From assembly GCA_016194285.1 (NCBI GenBank), contig JACQBZ010000060.1, forward strand, positions 1 to 43,838: a stretch of DNA of 43,838 nt, written 5' to 3'. This stretch comes from Nitrospirota bacterium. GTDB lineage: Bacteria > Nitrospirota > Nitrospiria > JACQBZ01. The notes beneath the pieces were generated by a model, which was given only the letters and a program-made list of their open reading frames with translations, searched no databases and was not told where the DNA came from. Positions 8,502 through 19,127 of the stretch are shown here, one piece after another. The position numbers were made by a program, and so were the translations under genes. Every line of letters begins with the position of its first letter. The first letter of the stretch is position 1.

Positions 8502-9542
8502 ATGGTTGCGCATCGCCTTCAAACCATCCGGCATTCACTCCGCGCCCTCGCCGTACTATCTTTCGGAGGGGTCCTGCTTCTGGGTTGTAGCGGGAAAAGC
8601 AATATCGTCACGGCCATCGTCATCAATCCGGAGCAGCCGGCCATTTTATTCATCGCCACGAATGATTCCGTGTATAAAACCCGCGATGATGGAGCCACCT
8701 GGGTGCCGGTCACGGAGGGTTTGAGCAACGCCCGGATCTTGTCCTTGGCCATCCATCCGACCCATACCTCGACCATTTATGCGGGGACCCTCGGAGACGC
8801 CGTCTATCGTAGTGTCGATGGTGGGAATCGGTGGTCCATCATCAACGCAGGGCTCAAAGAGCATGTAACCGTGGTCAATGCTTTTATCTTTTTTCCTCGG
8901 GATCCCGAGACCATTCTGGCCGCGACAACGGTCGGGTTTTTTAAAACCGTCAACGGAGGGATGATGTGGGACGAGCTGTCCAGCAAGGGCATGGACAGCG
9001 TCTACATCGTGTCGACCGCTTTGGATCCTACCGACACGAATATTTTATATGCCGGCACGAGCGGCGGTGTTTACAAGAGCGTCAACGGTGGAATGAATTG
9101 GCGTGAATCGAACAACGGCCTCATGCGTATCGAACCCGGAAACGCGCTTTCATTGGGGGTCAATTCTCTGGTGATGAATCCGATGAAGACGACAACGCTC
9201 TACGCCGGAACGACTCGAGGGGCTTTCAAGACGATCGATGGCGCCGCAAGCTGGACCAAGATTCAGGAAGGGATCGGGGAGCGATTTATTGCAGCGATCC
9301 TCGTCCATCCCACGGTGAGTACGACCCTGTTTGCCGCGACCCAGGACGGGGTTTACAAATCAACCGATGGGGGTGAGCATTGGGTAACCCTTAACAATGG
9401 GCTGGCCAATCTCAACGTCCGCTCGCTGGTCATGCACCCGAAGGATCCGAACATCCTGTATGCAGGGACTCAGGGTGGCCTTTTTAAAACAATGGACGGT
9501 GGCGTCCACTGGACTGCTTTGACCATTCGACCGAAAGGGTGA
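8502..9542 (+). CDS. BNR/YCF48-like beta-propeller lipoprotein
   Basis: Lipobox-like VLLLGCSGK followed by repeated YAGT..GVYKS.NGG..W units. Confidence 0.85.
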   Translation: MVAHRLQTIRHSLRALAVLSFGGVLLLGCSGKSNIVTAIVINPEQPAILFIATNDSVYKTRDDGATWVPVTEGLSNARILSLAIHPTHTSTIYAGTLGDAVYRSVDGGNRWSIINAGLKEHVTVVNAFIFFPRDPETILAATTVGFFKTVNGGMMWDELSSKGMDSVYIVSTALDPTDTNILYAGTSGGVYKSVNGGMNWRESNNGLMRIEPGNALSLGVNSLVMNPMKTTTLYAGTTRGAFKTIDGAASWTKIQEGIGERFIAAILVHPTVSTTLFAATQDGVYKSTDGGEHWVTLNNGLANLNVRSLVMHPKDPNILYAGTQGGLFKTMDGGVHWTALTIRPKG

Positions 9543-9890: not shown

Positions 9891-12371
9891 ATGCAGCGTT
9901 TGAAGATCAGAACACCCTTGCTAAAAACAGTTCTCTTTCCATTTCTTATTATTCTATCGCTTACCGGAATTTTTAATATTTCCAAAGCCTCCACCGATCC
10001 CTCCCCCGGTGCTTCAACCGATATCAGTTCTTTGACCACCCCGGCTGAGGGGCCATCGATGGCGGAGTCTCAGTCAACGGAACCGATTGATATGGACTCG
10101 AAGCCGTTTGTAGGGTCCTGGGGGGATTATGTCCTGTCCATTCTGTTGATCGCACTTGCGATTTTTTTAACAAAGAAGCGGATCCGCCTGTTTCAAGCCA
10201 AATGGGCCATCACTGCCCTCAGTGTCTTTTTGGGATTGCGCTACCTCTACTGGCGGTGGATCTACACGTTAAATACAGAGGATCCCTGGGCCACAAGTAT
10301 CAGTCTGATACTCTATTCAGCCGAGATTTATGGTTTCCTTTCCGTGCTTTTGTTTTATGTTCAGGTGGCCAAGCCTACGGACCGTTCTGCGAGCCCGCCG
10401 AGCGAAACCCAGCTGCCGACCGTGGATATCTTTGTCACAATTTACAATGAATCGCTGGATATCTTGTATCAAACCCTTGTCGGATGTATGGCCATCGACT
10501 ACCCGGCCGGTCTTAAAAAGGTTTGTGTCCTCGATGATGGGCATCGGGAAGAGGTCAAACGCCTCGCGGAGCGTTTGGGCTGCCAGTACATCCGTCGCAC
10601 GACCCATGAACATGCCAAGGCCGGGAACCTCAATCATGCCCTGACCCAGTCTTCCGGGGAGTTCGTGATGGTTCTGGATTGTGATCACGTCCCGGTCCGA
10701 ACCTTTCTCAAAGAGACGGTCGGTTTCTTCAAGGACCCGAAGGTCGCCTTTGTGCAGACCCCGCATTACTTCTATAATCCGGACACGTTTCAACGAAATC
10801 TTCGACTGGAACGGGAGATTGTCAATGAACAGGACCTATTTTTCTATGTCATACAACCGGGGCGGGACGGCTTCAACTCCAGCTTCTTCGCCGGCAGCGG
10901 GGGGATATTCCGCCGCTCGGCTCTCCAAACCATCGGCGGGTTCCAGGTGGTGACCCTGACGGAAGATCTCCATACCAGCATGGTCCTACACGCAAAAGGA
11001 TACCGGTCCGTCTACGTGAATAAGATTCTGGCGGCGGGATTGGCTCCCGAGAGCTACGAGAGCTATCTGAAACAGAGGCAACGGTGGACTCGAGGAGGGG
11101 TCCAGGTTTTCCTGTTGGACAACCCGCTTTGGAAAGCCGGACTGACCGTGATGCAGCGGATCAATTATTTCGGTTCGCTCTTTTATTTCTTTCACGGCTG
11201 GCCCCGTCTGATTTATCTGGCGGCTCCGCTTTCATACCTTCTTCTGAATTACCCTCCGCTCATGGCGCCTTTTCCGATTCTTCTGAATTATTTTTTGCCC
11301 TACTATCTATCATCGTTCATGGCCTTTAACGTCGTCAGCAAAAACTTTCGCAACCCCTTCTGGTCGGATGTTTATGAAACCGTGATGTGCTTTTTTATCA
11401 GCTGGACCTCTCTGGAAACCGTGTTTACGCCGACAAAGACCAAGTTCCATGTAACGCCCAAGGGGGTGCGGTTTGAGAAGGCCCAGTTGTCCTGGTCTTA
11501 TGTGATGCCCCACATACTGCTTTTCGCCGTTCTATTGATCGGGCTTGGCGTGGGGGGATATCAATTATGGAATCGCCGCGACCATTTCGATGCCACCTTG
11601 TTAAGCGTCATCTGGACCGTCTATAATCTGGTCATCCTGATGGCGGCGGTCATCGTGGCCCGCGAGCGTCCTCAGAAAAGGTCGTCGCCTCGCCTGTTCC
11701 GGAAGATCGACTGCGAATTGAAGTTCGGGGGTCGAACCCTCGTTGGAAAAACAACCGACCTAAGCGAGAGCGGTCTATCGATGGTTCTGGATCGCCCCGT
11801 GCTTCTCCCGCCGGTGGTTCACGTTCGGTTGGTCAGCGACTTCGGCGAGATCACCGAAATCAAGGGGGAAGTGATCCGGAACGATTCGTCGCCGTCCGGC
11901 GGTTCCGGTGTCGGGATTCGATTTTTAAACATCAGCGATTCGCAGCACCAGAGTCTGATCCGCCAGATGTACAGTTCACCGACTGGTTGGGCCGAGGCCC
12001 ATCAGGCCACCTCCGCCACGTGGGCGTCGTTGGCCTATCTGGTGACCTCATCGGTCCGGGCCTTTGTCAAGGAAAAGATCCTTCGGCGGCTTTCCTCCCG
12101 GGTCAAGAAGCGCCTGACGTGCGAACTGGTGGTGGGAGAACGCGTATTCCAAGGGACTACGGAGGACATCAGCAACACCGGTCTCTTGGTGCACCTGAAG
12201 ACCGACGAGGCCTTCACGAAAGAAGTGACGATCCGGTTGTATCACGAGGATCGGGTGGTTTTCAGTATCCGGGGAGAAATTGTCCGCCGGACCAAGGCGA
12301 AAGGACAGGGGGCGATTTACGGGATCCGGTTTCTCGAACGCCAGGATCTCGAACTATCCTCCCTGGCATGA
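9891..12371 (+). CDS. bcsA: Cellulose synthase catalytic subunit-like GT2 with two C-terminal PilZ domains
   Basis: DDG, DCDHVP (DxD), LTEDLHTS (TED), QRQRW (QxxRW) and FHVTPKG motifs. Two PilZ modules: RSSPR...TDLSESG and RVKKR...EDISNTG. Confidence 0.88.
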   Translation: MQRLKIRTPLLKTVLFPFLIILSLTGIFNISKASTDPSPGASTDISSLTTPAEGPSMAESQSTEPIDMDSKPFVGSWGDYVLSILLIALAIFLTKKRIRLFQAKWAITALSVFLGLRYLYWRWIYTLNTEDPWATSISLILYSAEIYGFLSVLLFYVQVAKPTDRSASPPSETQLPTVDIFVTIYNESLDILYQTLVGCMAIDYPAGLKKVCVLDDGHREEVKRLAERLGCQYIRRTTHEHAKAGNLNHALTQSSGEFVMVLDCDHVPVRTFLKETVGFFKDPKVAFVQTPHYFYNPDTFQRNLRLEREIVNEQDLFFYVIQPGRDGFNSSFFAGSGGIFRRSALQTIGGFQVVTLTEDLHTSMVLHAKGYRSVYVNKILAAGLAPESYESYLKQRQRWTRGGVQVFLLDNPLWKAGLTVMQRINYFGSLFYFFHGWPRLIYLAAPLSYLLLNYPPLMAPFPILLNYFLPYYLSSFMAFNVVSKNFRNPFWSDVYETVMCFFISWTSLETVFTPTKTKFHVTPKGVRFEKAQLSWSYVMPHILLFAVLLIGLGVGGYQLWNRRDHFDATLLSVIWTVYNLVILMAAVIVARERPQKRSSPRLFRKIDCELKFGGRTLVGKTTDLSESGLSMVLDRPVLLPPVVHVRLVSDFGEITEIKGEVIRNDSSPSGGSGVGIRFLNISDSQHQSLIRQMYSSPTGWAEAHQATSATWASLAYLVTSSVRAFVKEKILRRLSSRVKKRLTCELVVGERVFQGTTEDISNTGLLVHLKTDEAFTKEVTIRLYHEDRVVFSIRGEIVRRTKAKGQGAIYGIRFLERQDLELSSLA

Positions 12372-12395
12372 AGTCGAGGAGGTTCCCGTCGTATC

Positions 12396-13937
12396 ATGGG
12401 CGCGTGGAATTTTTATTTCTTAGCCAAACTGTACTTATATTTTCGAGGCTATCTTCGCCTCGATTTCGTGTTGAACCTTCTCTTCATCATTTTTCTGGTC
12501 ATTCCCGTGCCGGCGCAACTGAAGTCTTACCGGTCACTCACCGTCGTTAAACATGGCTTCAGTGGGGTTTTGGGTTTATTGCTTTTGTGGCATGATTCCT
12601 GGCTTCCACCGCTCGGAGTTGCGTTGAGCTTTGTTGGGCAAGGCGGGATGCCGTCCAAAGAATACGTCTACCGATTTCTTTTGGAGTTCGTCAATCTCCG
12701 GGAAGTCGCCGCGGTGGTTTCAATTCTGGCCTTGGGGATTTTAGTGCGCAATCGTATTCGATTAACGCCGGTCGTCCTGCTCTTACTTGTGATCGTTCCA
12801 CTCCGCGAGTTTGGACAACACCCGGGTGGGATCGAGGGCGAGGTCCGGGCCTTCTATCGATCGGAATCGTCCCGCGTGGTTCATTTTGAAAAATCAAATA
12901 CGAAGGCCCCGGATTTTGACATCATTATTTTACATGTCTGCTCGCTGTCCTGGGATGATTTGAGAGGGGTCGGCATGGAAGCCGATCCCTTTTTCAAAAC
13001 ATTTGATGTCCTTTTCACCGATTTTAACTCCGTCACGACGTACAGCAACCCATCCGCCATCCGGCTTCTAAGGGCCAACTGCGGTCAGTCCAGTCATGAC
13101 GCCCTCTACCACGAGGCGCCGCGGGACTGCTACCTGGTTGAATCGCTTCGTGATCAAGGATTTGAAACCACCTTTACCTTGAATCATGACGGGGTCTACG
13201 GTCATTTTGCAGACCAAGTGAAGGCCTTGGGGCATCTGGATACGCCGCTGCTGCCGATCGATCTCCCGATCCAGGCCTATGACTTTGATGGATCGGCCAT
13301 CTATAATGACTACGCCGTGCTTGAAAAATGGTGGGCCCTTCGGCAGCAATCCCCCTCAACGGCTGCGGCGGTTTACTACAACACGATCAGCTTGCACGAC
13401 GGCGCTCATTGGGTCGGAGAGAAAGAATGGTGGAAGCGGGACCGCACGGTTTACTACAGAGAAGCGGCGCAGAAACTGTTGGGGGATGTCGCGCGGTTTT
13501 TTGATCTTGTGGCGTCGTCCGGCCGGAAGGCCGTCATCGTTTTTGTTCCGGAACACGGTATGGCGCTGCGGGGCAACGTGCTTCAGGTCGCGGGCCTGCG
13601 GGATATTCCGTTTAAGCCAATCACCCAGGTGCCGGTCGGGATCAAATTCATCGGGAGAAATCCCGGTCGCGGAGATATTCCTCAACGCGTCATTTCCAAA
13701 CCGACCAGCTATCTTGCGCTTTCGTACCTGATGGCGTCTTTTATGGAACGAAGCCCTTTCGAGTCGGACGGGTCTGAATCCGATGATCGAATCGCGCATC
13801 TGCCTGAAACCGATTTTGTGGCCGAAAACCAGGAAATCCGAATTGCCAAAAAAGGCGCGGAATACTTTCTTTACGGCAAAGAGAAGAAATGGATCGCGCT
13901 TCCATCAATTGCCGTTCCACAGACAGGAGGAACTTAA
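12396..13937 (+). CDS. bcsG: BcsG-like cellulose phosphoethanolamine transferase
   Basis: GAWNFYFLAKLYLYFRGYL N-terminus, TTYSNPSAIRLLRANCGQSSH, YNTISLHDGAHW, VPEHGMALRG and VAGLRDIPFKPITQVPVGIKF all match my recollection of E. coli BcsG blocks. Confidence 0.88.
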   Translation: MGAWNFYFLAKLYLYFRGYLRLDFVLNLLFIIFLVIPVPAQLKSYRSLTVVKHGFSGVLGLLLLWHDSWLPPLGVALSFVGQGGMPSKEYVYRFLLEFVNLREVAAVVSILALGILVRNRIRLTPVVLLLLVIVPLREFGQHPGGIEGEVRAFYRSESSRVVHFEKSNTKAPDFDIIILHVCSLSWDDLRGVGMEADPFFKTFDVLFTDFNSVTTYSNPSAIRLLRANCGQSSHDALYHEAPRDCYLVESLRDQGFETTFTLNHDGVYGHFADQVKALGHLDTPLLPIDLPIQAYDFDGSAIYNDYAVLEKWWALRQQSPSTAAAVYYNTISLHDGAHWVGEKEWWKRDRTVYYREAAQKLLGDVARFFDLVASSGRKAVIVFVPEHGMALRGNVLQVAGLRDIPFKPITQVPVGIKFIGRNPGRGDIPQRVISKPTSYLALSYLMASFMERSPFESDGSESDDRIAHLPETDFVAENQEIRIAKKGAEYFLYGKEKKWIALPSIAVPQTGGT

Positions 13938-13940
13938 TCC

Positions 13941-14708
13941 ATGGTCCGGTGGGTATGCCTTTGGGGAGTGATTTTTTCCGTCAGCCTGCTTTGCAGCGGG
14001 CCGGCGTTTGCGCTGGATTATCTGGGCCTGCCCGGTTCGACCTGGGGTTCGGTCAGCCATGATGTGGACAAGCTGGTGGGCTCCGGCGCGATGGGCTACA
14101 TCAACCAGGGGGTCGACTGGGTCAAGCTGCCGGGGGCGATCACGTTCAACACCTTCGCCGAGTTTCGGTACCGGTTTCGGAGCGAGAACAAGGAATTTTA
14201 TAATGCCTACAGTGGGGCGACGGGGTTGGAATTCAAACGGTCGCCTTTCCATTTGGGAATGGACTATGTCTGGGAGCGGTTTCCGGCGGAGGGCGTGCAG
14301 TCCAACAATCTCCAATACTATCTCACCTGGTACTACGACTGGGACCTCAATCGGGGGTCGCGGAAGGTTCTGGGTGTTCCGGGTTCGATCTGGGGTTCGG
14401 TCAGCCATGATGTGGACAAGCTGGTGGGCTCCGGCGCGATGGGCTACATCAATCAGGGAATCGACTGGGTCAAGCTGCCGGGGGCGATCACGTTCAACAC
14501 GTTTGCCGAGTTTCGGTACCGGTTTCGGAGCGAGAATAAGGAGTTTTATAATGCCTACAGCGGAGCGACGGGGTTGGAATTCAAACGGTCGCCTTTCCAT
14601 TTGGGAATGGACTATGTCTGGGAGCGGTTTCCGGCAGCAGGGGAGCAGTCGAATAAACTGCAATACTATCTCACCTGGTACTACGACTGGGACTTGAAAC
14701 ATAAGTAG
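13941..14708 (+). CDS. Secreted protein of two near-identical ~116-aa tandem repeats, unknown function, in the cellulose locus
   Basis: N-terminal signal peptide, then LGLPGSTWGSVSHDV...YYDWDL repeated with a 348-nt period. Directly follows bcsG. Confidence 0.8.
   Translation: MVRWVCLWGVIFSVSLLCSGPAFALDYLGLPGSTWGSVSHDVDKLVGSGAMGYINQGVDWVKLPGAITFNTFAEFRYRFRSENKEFYNAYSGATGLEFKRSPFHLGMDYVWERFPAEGVQSNNLQYYLTWYYDWDLNRGSRKVLGVPGSIWGSVSHDVDKLVGSGAMGYINQGIDWVKLPGAITFNTFAEFRYRFRSENKEFYNAYSGATGLEFKRSPFHLGMDYVWERFPAAGEQSNKLQYYLTWYYDWDLKHK
14026..14348 (+). repeat. Tandem repeat unit 1 (period 348 bp)
   Basis: Near-identical to 14374-14696. Confidence 0.9.
14374..14696 (+). repeat. Tandem repeat unit 2 (period 348 bp)
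   Basis: Near-identical to 14026-14348. Confidence 0.9.
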
Positions 14709-14736: not shown

Positions 14737-14765
14737 TTGACAGCCCATGCCGTTTTGACTATACT
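14737..14765 (+). promoter_or_regulatory. Sigma70-like promoter for rplI
   Basis: TTGACA 14737-14742 - N17 - TATACT 14760-14765. Confidence 0.65.
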
Positions 14766-16978: not shown

Positions 16979-19127
16979 TTACCCGTTGAGAATGAATTCG
17001 CCGTGCTCGATTCGCAGAGTCCGCAGGTGCATGCGGCAGGGCATGGGTTTTAATGCGGGGTTGAACTTTGCCGTCAGAACTTGCGGGACAAAGGCCGGCA
17101 GCCAGAGTCCTCCCACATGAAATTGTAAGAATTTATAACCGAGATTCTCCTCGTTCACTAAGTAAGGCACAAGGGCCAGATCCAGACGCGGGATCCATCC
17201 CTTAGAGTCGGCATGAATCCGCAATTTCCCTTCTTGGAATTCCACTTCCGAATGCGGCGCACCTTTCAGGCCGGACAGATACGCATTCAGATCCGTTTGA
17301 GTGATCCTGAAATGGGGCGTTGCTTCCAACAGGCTGATGATTTCAAACTGCCCGTCCCGTAATAATTTATAGGGATTAACGGTTAGATCCGACAGTTCCA
17401 TTCCGAGATCCCGAACCATCAGGGATTGCCGCCCGTCGGGCTTTGACTCAACTCGAGCAGAGTCCATCGAGAAACTCACCCTTCGAAACCGTCCCGACAG
17501 TGTATCCTGATCTGAAATGGGCTCCACATGGATCGCCCAGCCCTGGGGGTCCTTCACATATTGTCCGAGATAACCCATTAGGGCGGATTTAAATCTTTCG
17601 ATAAATGCAGCCGGCGTGATTCCGGAAACCGGGGTGATATCCCGAACATAGATTTGAACAATGCTTCCGTCCGGGAGCGGTCGTTCCCATTTTTTCTTGA
17701 AGACCGCTTCGAAACCCTCCGGGTCCCGTTGAATCGTTTTCATGACCTCGACCGGGTCATGCGCGAATCCTTGGTCGCCGGTTTTTGTGACGACGAAGTC
17801 AGTAAAGGTGGGAAACCGTACCCACGTCGTGACGTCCAGCGGATACCGTTCCAATACCGCGTAATACTCGAAACCATGCCTCTGGAACTGGGCCAAATCC
17901 GGGATGACACGGACACGGGGCCGGGGATGGTAGGACTTTTGCGTTTGGATGAACTCAAAGGCGTCTTTCAACGGCCAGGCCTCCCGCTGAGGCGGGAATG
18001 CGAGAAACGTATTTATTACCGTATAAAGGCCGAGGCCGATCAGGCCCAGCCCCGTTACCCATGGCTTCCAGCGAAAATTTTTAAGCCAGCCTATCGCGAT
18101 CAGGCCTACCGCAGGCAAAAACGGCATGGTAAATCGGATATCTTTATTCCGGAGTAGGGTCAAGATGCCGTATCCACTGATGATCCAGAGAAAGAGGATC
18201 GGGTTCTTCTTGAGATCTTCACGCAGATAAAATACGACGCCGACCGCGAAAAAGATAAGCCAAAGGTAGTGGATGTCTCTAGGAAACAACCTGGCATAGT
18301 AAATAAGGGATTGCGCCGTGAAGATCTCCGGATCACCCTCTTTAACCCCGTTACTTGTGAATCGAGTTGTCATGAAGAGCAGATGCGATAGATGCTCCAC
18401 GAACCACGGAAGGGCGACCACGCCCCAGATCGCGAAGGCGACCATGATGTTCATCCCCCTTTTGAGACGGTCATCAGCACGGAGGGCCTGGACAACCAGA
18501 TAAATCAGGGGCAGAAAAATAAAAAAAAGATAAGACCATTTGGTGAGGGTCGCAAGCCCGGAGATCAGTCCTCGCCCAGGCGGTCATGGCCGTCGTTGGG
18601 ATATCCAGCATAAATATCCGGGACTGGTCTATAATGATCGGAAATGAGGTCACCGCCACGGCGGCCAGAAGACCGATTTCGGGTGAATACAGATGGGTGC
18701 CGAGGCGGTACACCGCAAGCATCAGAAGGCCAAGAAAAAGTTGATTTAGTATCCAAGTGGCGGTGTCGATGTCGGGAGGCAAAAAGAAATAGAACACCGA
18801 CGTGGCCAAAGTCGCAAGCGGTGGATAATAATTATCCACATTGAGCAGGGCCGCGAGGCCGCTGGTCGAGAGACCCAGCCTCTGTAGAACATGATAATAC
18901 AGGAGGCTGGACATGAGGTGATTCAACGGATCGTGGTAGGGGGGGACTGGGATTCCGACATTCGCGAGAGTCTCCAGGGGGCCCGAACCTCTTGCAGTCG
19001 GGTTCTCTTTTCTATAACATAATGGCGACGTCCGCGCAACCTCACGAAGTGAATCGAGGCATAATCCATCCGGGCCGTCCGTTAACCGGAGAGGGTTGAC
19101 AAGCCGTCTGTTTCTTGGTAAAAGCAA
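16979..19127 (-). pseudogene. Disrupted GT39/PMT-like membrane glycosyltransferase with C-terminal LmeA/DUF2993-like region
   Basis: Two ORFs in different frames (19127-18474 and 18454-16979). Minus-strand frame shifts near 18565-18575, where LDIPTTAMTAW should continue into GLISGLATLTKWSYLFF. About 20 residues seem missing compared with remembered GT39 proteins. Confidence 0.65.
19096..19124 (+). promoter_or_regulatory. Candidate promoter for the liv substrate-binding protein
   Basis: TTGACA 19096-19101 - N17 - TAAAAG 19119-19124. Confidence 0.4.

Follow-up and report, generated by a model that had tools for sequence, protein, structure and literature searches.

The window analysed here, a contiguous 43,838-nucleotide stretch of DNA from a Nitrospirota bacterium, contains a tight, co-directional operon of three genes on the + strand (positions 9891-14708), encoding a BcsA-type synthase (bcsA, 9891-12371), a BcsG-type phosphoethanolamine (pEtN) transferase (bcsG, 12396-13937) and a small secreted repeat protein, here called P3 (13941-14708). 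The intergenic gaps are 24 bases (bcsA/bcsG) and 3 bases (bcsG/P3), in agreement with the coordinates given in an earlier, sequence-only reading of this DNA, and gene order and gap lengths are identical in both sister genomes (L010 and L011). Within the genus purifying selection acts on each of the three genes, with dN/dS values of about 0.17-0.21. A sigma-70-like promoter, recognised by consensus match alone, lies at 14737-14765, downstream of P3 and upstream of rplI, so that P3 is probably the last gene of the operon. Upstream of bcsA, at 8502-9542 (+), is a gene for a lipoprotein with a BNR/sortilin-type propeller, which is conserved in the genus, is matched by a similar ORF in the corresponding position of genome G006, and is possibly an accessory of the bcsA-bcsG-P3 system. 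On the other side, at 16979-19127 (-), two adjacent ORFs of 491 aa (with an LmeA-like C-terminus) and 217 aa (PMT_2-like) are represented in the sister genomes by one ORF at least 663 aa long, and the split is probably a frameshift or an assembly error in the window.

The product of the first gene (826 aa) was assigned to the BcsA-type processive GT2 synthases using profile matches, motifs and a phylogenetic tree. It matched cellulose-synthase/GT2 families and, in two tandem C-terminal stretches, PilZ (1e-28), scored 656.6 bits against TIGR03030, somewhat below the curated cut-off of 699.1, and has the E. coli and Rhodobacter BcsA proteins as its closest solved relatives. The GT2 core motifs of BcsA (DxD, TED and QxxRW), the gating loop FxVTxKG and a C-terminal PilZ domain are all present, the motifs kept being D215/D216 (DDG), DCDH, TED, QRQRW, FHVTPKG and those of PilZ, whilst the BcsB partner also expected of a BcsA is missing from the genome. 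The first PilZ domain (11673-11972, +), with Q-R/K-R..R and DLSESG motifs, is a putative c-di-GMP binding site, and the second, PilZ-like domain (approximate limits 12090-12356, +; KKRLTCE...EDISNTG) is degenerate. At the N-terminus a short Ser/Thr/Pro-rich linker comes after a hydrophobic segment. In E. coli the N-terminal region of BcsA recruits BcsG (PMC11379886); this region has no counterpart in the window protein, since the alignment begins at E. coli residue 176.

The second gene encodes a 513-aa protein with an N-terminal transmembrane domain followed by a periplasmic catalytic domain. It was identified as BcsG by its matches to CBP_BcsG (1.7e-143) and TIGR03368 (469.7 bits, above the curated cut-off of 410.2), together with its residues C182, S217, H334, E386 and H387, which align with C243, S278, H396, E442 and H443 of the E. 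coli enzyme. S217 is the predicted nucleophile, Ser278 being the assumed nucleophile of E. coli BcsG (PMC11379886).

P3 is a 255-aa protein with a signal peptide (13941-14012, +; cleavage after ...PAFA as judged by eye, helix at residues 2-18 in the structural model) and two repeats of ~110 aa, LPGSTWG...WDL (14028-14354, +) and VPGSIWG...WDL (14376-14705, +). The DNA of the two repeats is 93% identical in the window and 84-85% identical in the two sister species, which suggests that the repeats were recently homogenised in the window. Members of the P3 family have a signal peptide, one or two such repeats and invariant G, W, Q and G positions. The P3 proteins matched no family in Pfam or NCBIfam, and a sequence search of the PDB gave no similarity to KdgM/NanC/VhGalP or PgaA. 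The idea that P3 is a diverged BcsC barrel found no support in the Pfam scans of P3 members or in the PDB sequence search: no P3 protein matched BCSC_C (PF05420), and the window P3 has no TPR solenoid. We found no report of the family in the literature covered, subscription journals lying mostly outside that coverage.

The AlphaFold2 model of P3, built with 25 relatives, is all-beta with a pLDDT of 93.5 and has twelve strands, six per repeat. When this model was compared with the PDB using Foldseek, all 50 matches listed (E about 1e-3 or better) were outer-membrane barrels, including autotransporter domains, the PNAG secretin PgaA (4y25) and the 12-stranded porins VhGalP and NanC, at low TM-scores (0.3-0.5) and high rmsd; against a viral structure library the top matches were generic outer-membrane proteins. 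Residues along the strands show the inward/outward alternation to be expected of a barrel, at a strength equalled by 61 of 5000 shuffles. On the basis of the signal helix, the twelve strands, this alternation and the barrel-only matches P3 is predicted to be an outer-membrane beta-barrel. The model of the single-repeat form is weaker (pLDDT 72.9, five confident strands) and gave no significant match to PDB structures, as would fit a half-barrel needing a partner. We treat P3 as a new, unnamed candidate family of export barrels.

The sequence-only reading had recognised no BcsB, BcsC, BcsZ, BcsE or BcsF in the window, and this holds for the whole genome and for the two sister genomes, in which we obtained no match to BcsB (PF03170), BCSC_C (PF05420), the GH8 enzyme BcsZ (PF01270) or BcsE (PF10995), and for BcsF nothing above the cut-off (sub-cut-off matches only, none in G000). 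The pairing of BcsE and BcsF with BcsG that marks type II (E. coli-like) bcs systems was thus not found. Loss of BcsB in assembly gaps can be ruled out because the sister genomes, which are 98-99% complete (the window's genome is 88.6% complete), also lack it. A complete bcs operon elsewhere in the genome, which would have told against the sequence-only reading, is not there either: the window protein is the genome's single BcsA-type synthase, and the sole other match, C45, scores 168.5 bits where the cut-off is 699.1 and is a distant GT2 adjoining ilvD and a HAD hydrolase. BcsB has been described as required for BcsA activity in the systems studied, and in the Gram-negative pEtN-cellulose system studied the route across the outer membrane is described as BcsC (PMC11379886). 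In a maximum-likelihood tree of 29 synthases, the 23 BcsB-less proteins were separated from the six encoded in BcsB operons by a branch with 100/100 support. By this tree the window BcsA belongs to a BcsB-less synthase lineage, and because the BcsB-less proteins all lie on one side of that branch, the lack of BcsB is an old property of the lineage and does not reflect incomplete data or losses scattered among genomes.

The triad recurs in relatives, a point that the sequence-only reading had put forward for checking. BcsG was found in 16 of 399 Nitrospirota genomes and P3 in 23, with 14 of the 16 BcsG-bearing genomes also having P3; the other two contain BcsG fragments only, one of them at a contig end. 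BcsB is present in just three of the 16, and GH8 in the same three. A wider scan, using one genome per GTDB species, located P3 in Nitrospirota, Elusimicrobiota, Krumholzibacteriota and UBP1, plus one Desulfuromonadaceae MAG. There are 44 distinct P3 places (each counted once), and in 39 the fetched stretch contains a processive GT2, either BcsA or a smaller enzyme. Three of the remaining five are cut by contig ends (L051, L052 and L066), one lies on an 8.8-kb contig that encodes BcsB without BcsA (L058), and in one the P3 gene stands alone (L105).

Several operon architectures were distinguished. BcsA-BcsG-P3 without BcsB occurs in the window, its genus and several families, and BcsA-P3 also occurs with a divergent BcsG. 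BcsA, a GT-C-like protein and P3, with or without BcsG, are found together in some Nitrospirota, Krumholzibacteriota and UBP1, and BcsA-BcsB-(BcsZ) with P3 and BcsG in three Nitrospirota and in Elusimicrobiota; BcsA-P3 alone and small GT2-P3 pairs complete the set. Since many P3 loci (BcsA-only, BcsA with GT-C, small GT2) have no BcsG, P3 tracks the synthase and not BcsG, and a role for it as a dedicated BcsG partner is ruled out. The small GT2s beside P3 (L106, L108, L109 and L110) are processive-type enzymes of 360-432 aa without PilZ or BcsG, with a small gene between GT2 and P3 in L108 and L110, which suggests that P3 serves other polymers too. The GT-C-like insert, encoded between BcsA and P3, is a ~470-aa membrane protein with a weak PMT_2 match (L062:8508-9956), with equivalents in L040, L042, L064-L076 and L104; these form one large group, mostly without BcsG, and the insert is a possible alternative glycan modification. 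A protein with a class III adenylate/guanylate cyclase domain (Pfam match) is encoded just upstream of BcsA in L044 (895-1821), and ORFs judged similar by eye lie upstream of BcsA in L061 and L121, all of these operons containing BcsB. In Elusimicrobiota (L054, L055, L057, L058 and L061) a GH10 protein takes the place of GH8 BcsZ near P3/BcsB, and some of the bcs loci of this phylum have a GDPD-domain protein nearby.

The position of P3 relative to BcsC is clearest in genome G128, in which a 1062-aa protein consists of TPRs followed by P3. Its TPR part is 30% identical (E 3e-54) to a canonical Nitrospirota BcsC, that of G090, both proteins occupy the A-B-Z-C slot, and P3 stands where the G090 protein carries BCSC_C (516-840). 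In G006, a member of the same family with the locus at the same chromosomal site as in the window, and in G165, a TPR domain is instead fused to the BcsA N-terminus after a signal-anchor-like segment, and P3 comes next. BcsA proteins of ~1000 aa with this N-terminal arrangement are encoded beside P3 at L100:5540-8581 and L103:7485-10490, followed in L103 by a dual-specificity-phosphatase-like gene and in L100 by a similar-looking one. Strong BCSC_C matches were obtained in nine Nitrospirota genomes, none of which has P3, an exclusivity that is consistent with replacement and at such numbers is not statistically strong alone. The suggestion that the third gene replaces missing export or anchoring parts therefore stands for export, given the predicted barrel, its position in G128 and the lack of a strong BcsC barrel alongside it, and can be narrowed to the BcsC barrel; it does not extend to BcsB, as P3 also occurs in BcsB operons. 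The system may not be minimal, as BcsB and periplasmic TPR functions may come from elsewhere in the genome.

The locus is genuine and represents a recurring form of synthase-dependent exopolysaccharide secretion, and we consider it reasonably probable that BcsA extrudes a glucan, BcsG adds pEtN and P3 is the outer-membrane pore. Because its motifs are conserved, BcsA would polymerise UDP-glucose into a glucan, assumed to be beta-1,4-linked, under c-di-GMP control and extrude it through the inner membrane. BcsG, anchored in that membrane and with a periplasmic active site whose catalytic residues are conserved, would then move pEtN to the chain from a donor assumed to be lipid. In view of its fold, the fusion, the exclusivity and the linkage, P3 would provide the exit for the modified chain, as a small barrel of two six-stranded repeats in place of the 16-stranded BcsC barrel; single-repeat P3 proteins would pair, as oligomers, to close the barrel. 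As neither BcsB nor a TPR conduit is encoded, the synthases of the BcsB-less lineage must be active without BcsB, and the chain would cross the periplasm unassisted or with proteins encoded elsewhere. Against a pore count the low TM-scores and high rmsd, the weak model of the single-repeat form, and the occurrence of P3 beside BcsB, beside small GT2s and alone in L105; moreover, the reported requirement for BcsB (PMC11379886) is left unexplained by this scheme.

P3 could alternatively tether the secreted polymer to the cell surface, as an anchor or receptor in the outer membrane, or help a generic porin/OPX translocon, and not be the exit pore itself. A short barrel could bind glucan through its conserved aromatic residues, the single-repeat form has only about six strands, and P3 is also found alongside BcsB systems, for which the exit barrel might lie elsewhere. 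We nonetheless think this unlikely, as P3 occupies the exit-barrel position in the TPR protein of G128, strong BCSC_C matches are lacking from every P3 genome and no other barrel gene was recognised in the BcsA-BcsG-P3 loci. It is more doubtful still that the locus is a reduced remnant that has lost BcsB, BcsC and BcsZ and makes a periplasmic or short cell-wall-associated modified oligoglucan, not exported as cellulose, with P3 porin-like or envelope-stabilising. Barrels of the 12-stranded KdgM/NanC type pass oligosaccharides, and the absence of BcsB, GH8 and TPRs would agree with such a remnant, but the three genes are under purifying selection, the arrangement is conserved across several families and phyla, and the BcsB-less synthases form one deep lineage. 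Equally improbable is a supply of the BcsB and BcsC functions by other unrecognised genes with P3 merely accessory, for which the HlyD-like proteins and TolC thought to serve cyanobacterial BcsB-less systems (PMC12430437) offer a parallel, since no HlyD/TolC-type gene is linked to the loci whilst P3 nearly always is.

The preferred reading, with P3 as the pore, can be set against known systems. The locus shares with the E. coli type II bcs system (BcsA-B-C-Z plus BcsE-F-G) a BcsA with PilZ, a BcsG with conserved catalytic residues and, presumably, modification of the polymer in the periplasm as in E. coli pEtN-cellulose; it differs in having P3 and in lacking BcsB, BcsC, BcsZ, BcsE, BcsF and the BcsG-recruiting N-terminal domain of BcsA. 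BcsC is a TPR solenoid with a 16-stranded BCSC_C barrel. P3 resembles it in occupying the same kind of operon place and in being, by prediction, an outer-membrane barrel, but has no detectable BCSC_C homology, consists of one or two six-strand repeats and usually comes without TPRs, which a P3 protein carries only in the G128 fusion. The type IV cellulose loci of cyanobacteria (XcsA-HlyD-TolC) likewise have a BcsA-type synthase with PilZ and no BcsB, and are a precedent for BcsB-less cellulose synthases; there an XcsAB-TolC route using HlyD-like proteins has been proposed (PMC12430437), whereas the locus described here has BcsG and a dedicated barrel-like protein. P3 is of the same predicted fold class as the 12-stranded oligosaccharide porins KdgM/NanC/VhGalP and the 16-stranded PNAG secretin PgaA, in a different genomic context.

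The locus thus probably makes pEtN-decorated cellulose without two proteins thought essential, and in several phyla members of the P3 family probably form the pore by which such polymers leave through the outer membrane. That P3 proteins are previously undescribed small outer-membrane polysaccharide export barrels (12-stranded, or dimeric and 6-stranded) for processive GT2 synthases of Nitrospirota, Elusimicrobiota, Krumholzibacteriota and UBP1, and define a route by which cellulose-type polymers, often pEtN-modified, are exported independently of BcsB and BcsC, seems to us slightly better than an even chance. If P3 is an exit barrel, 255 aa is an unusually small size for one that serves a synthase-dependent polymer, and the protein would be a simple part for engineering the export of modified cellulose. 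A widespread lineage with BcsA, often BcsG, but neither BcsB nor BcsC makes the true need for BcsB testable, and the P3 family can serve to flag unannotated exopolysaccharide loci in the genomes of uncultured phyla.
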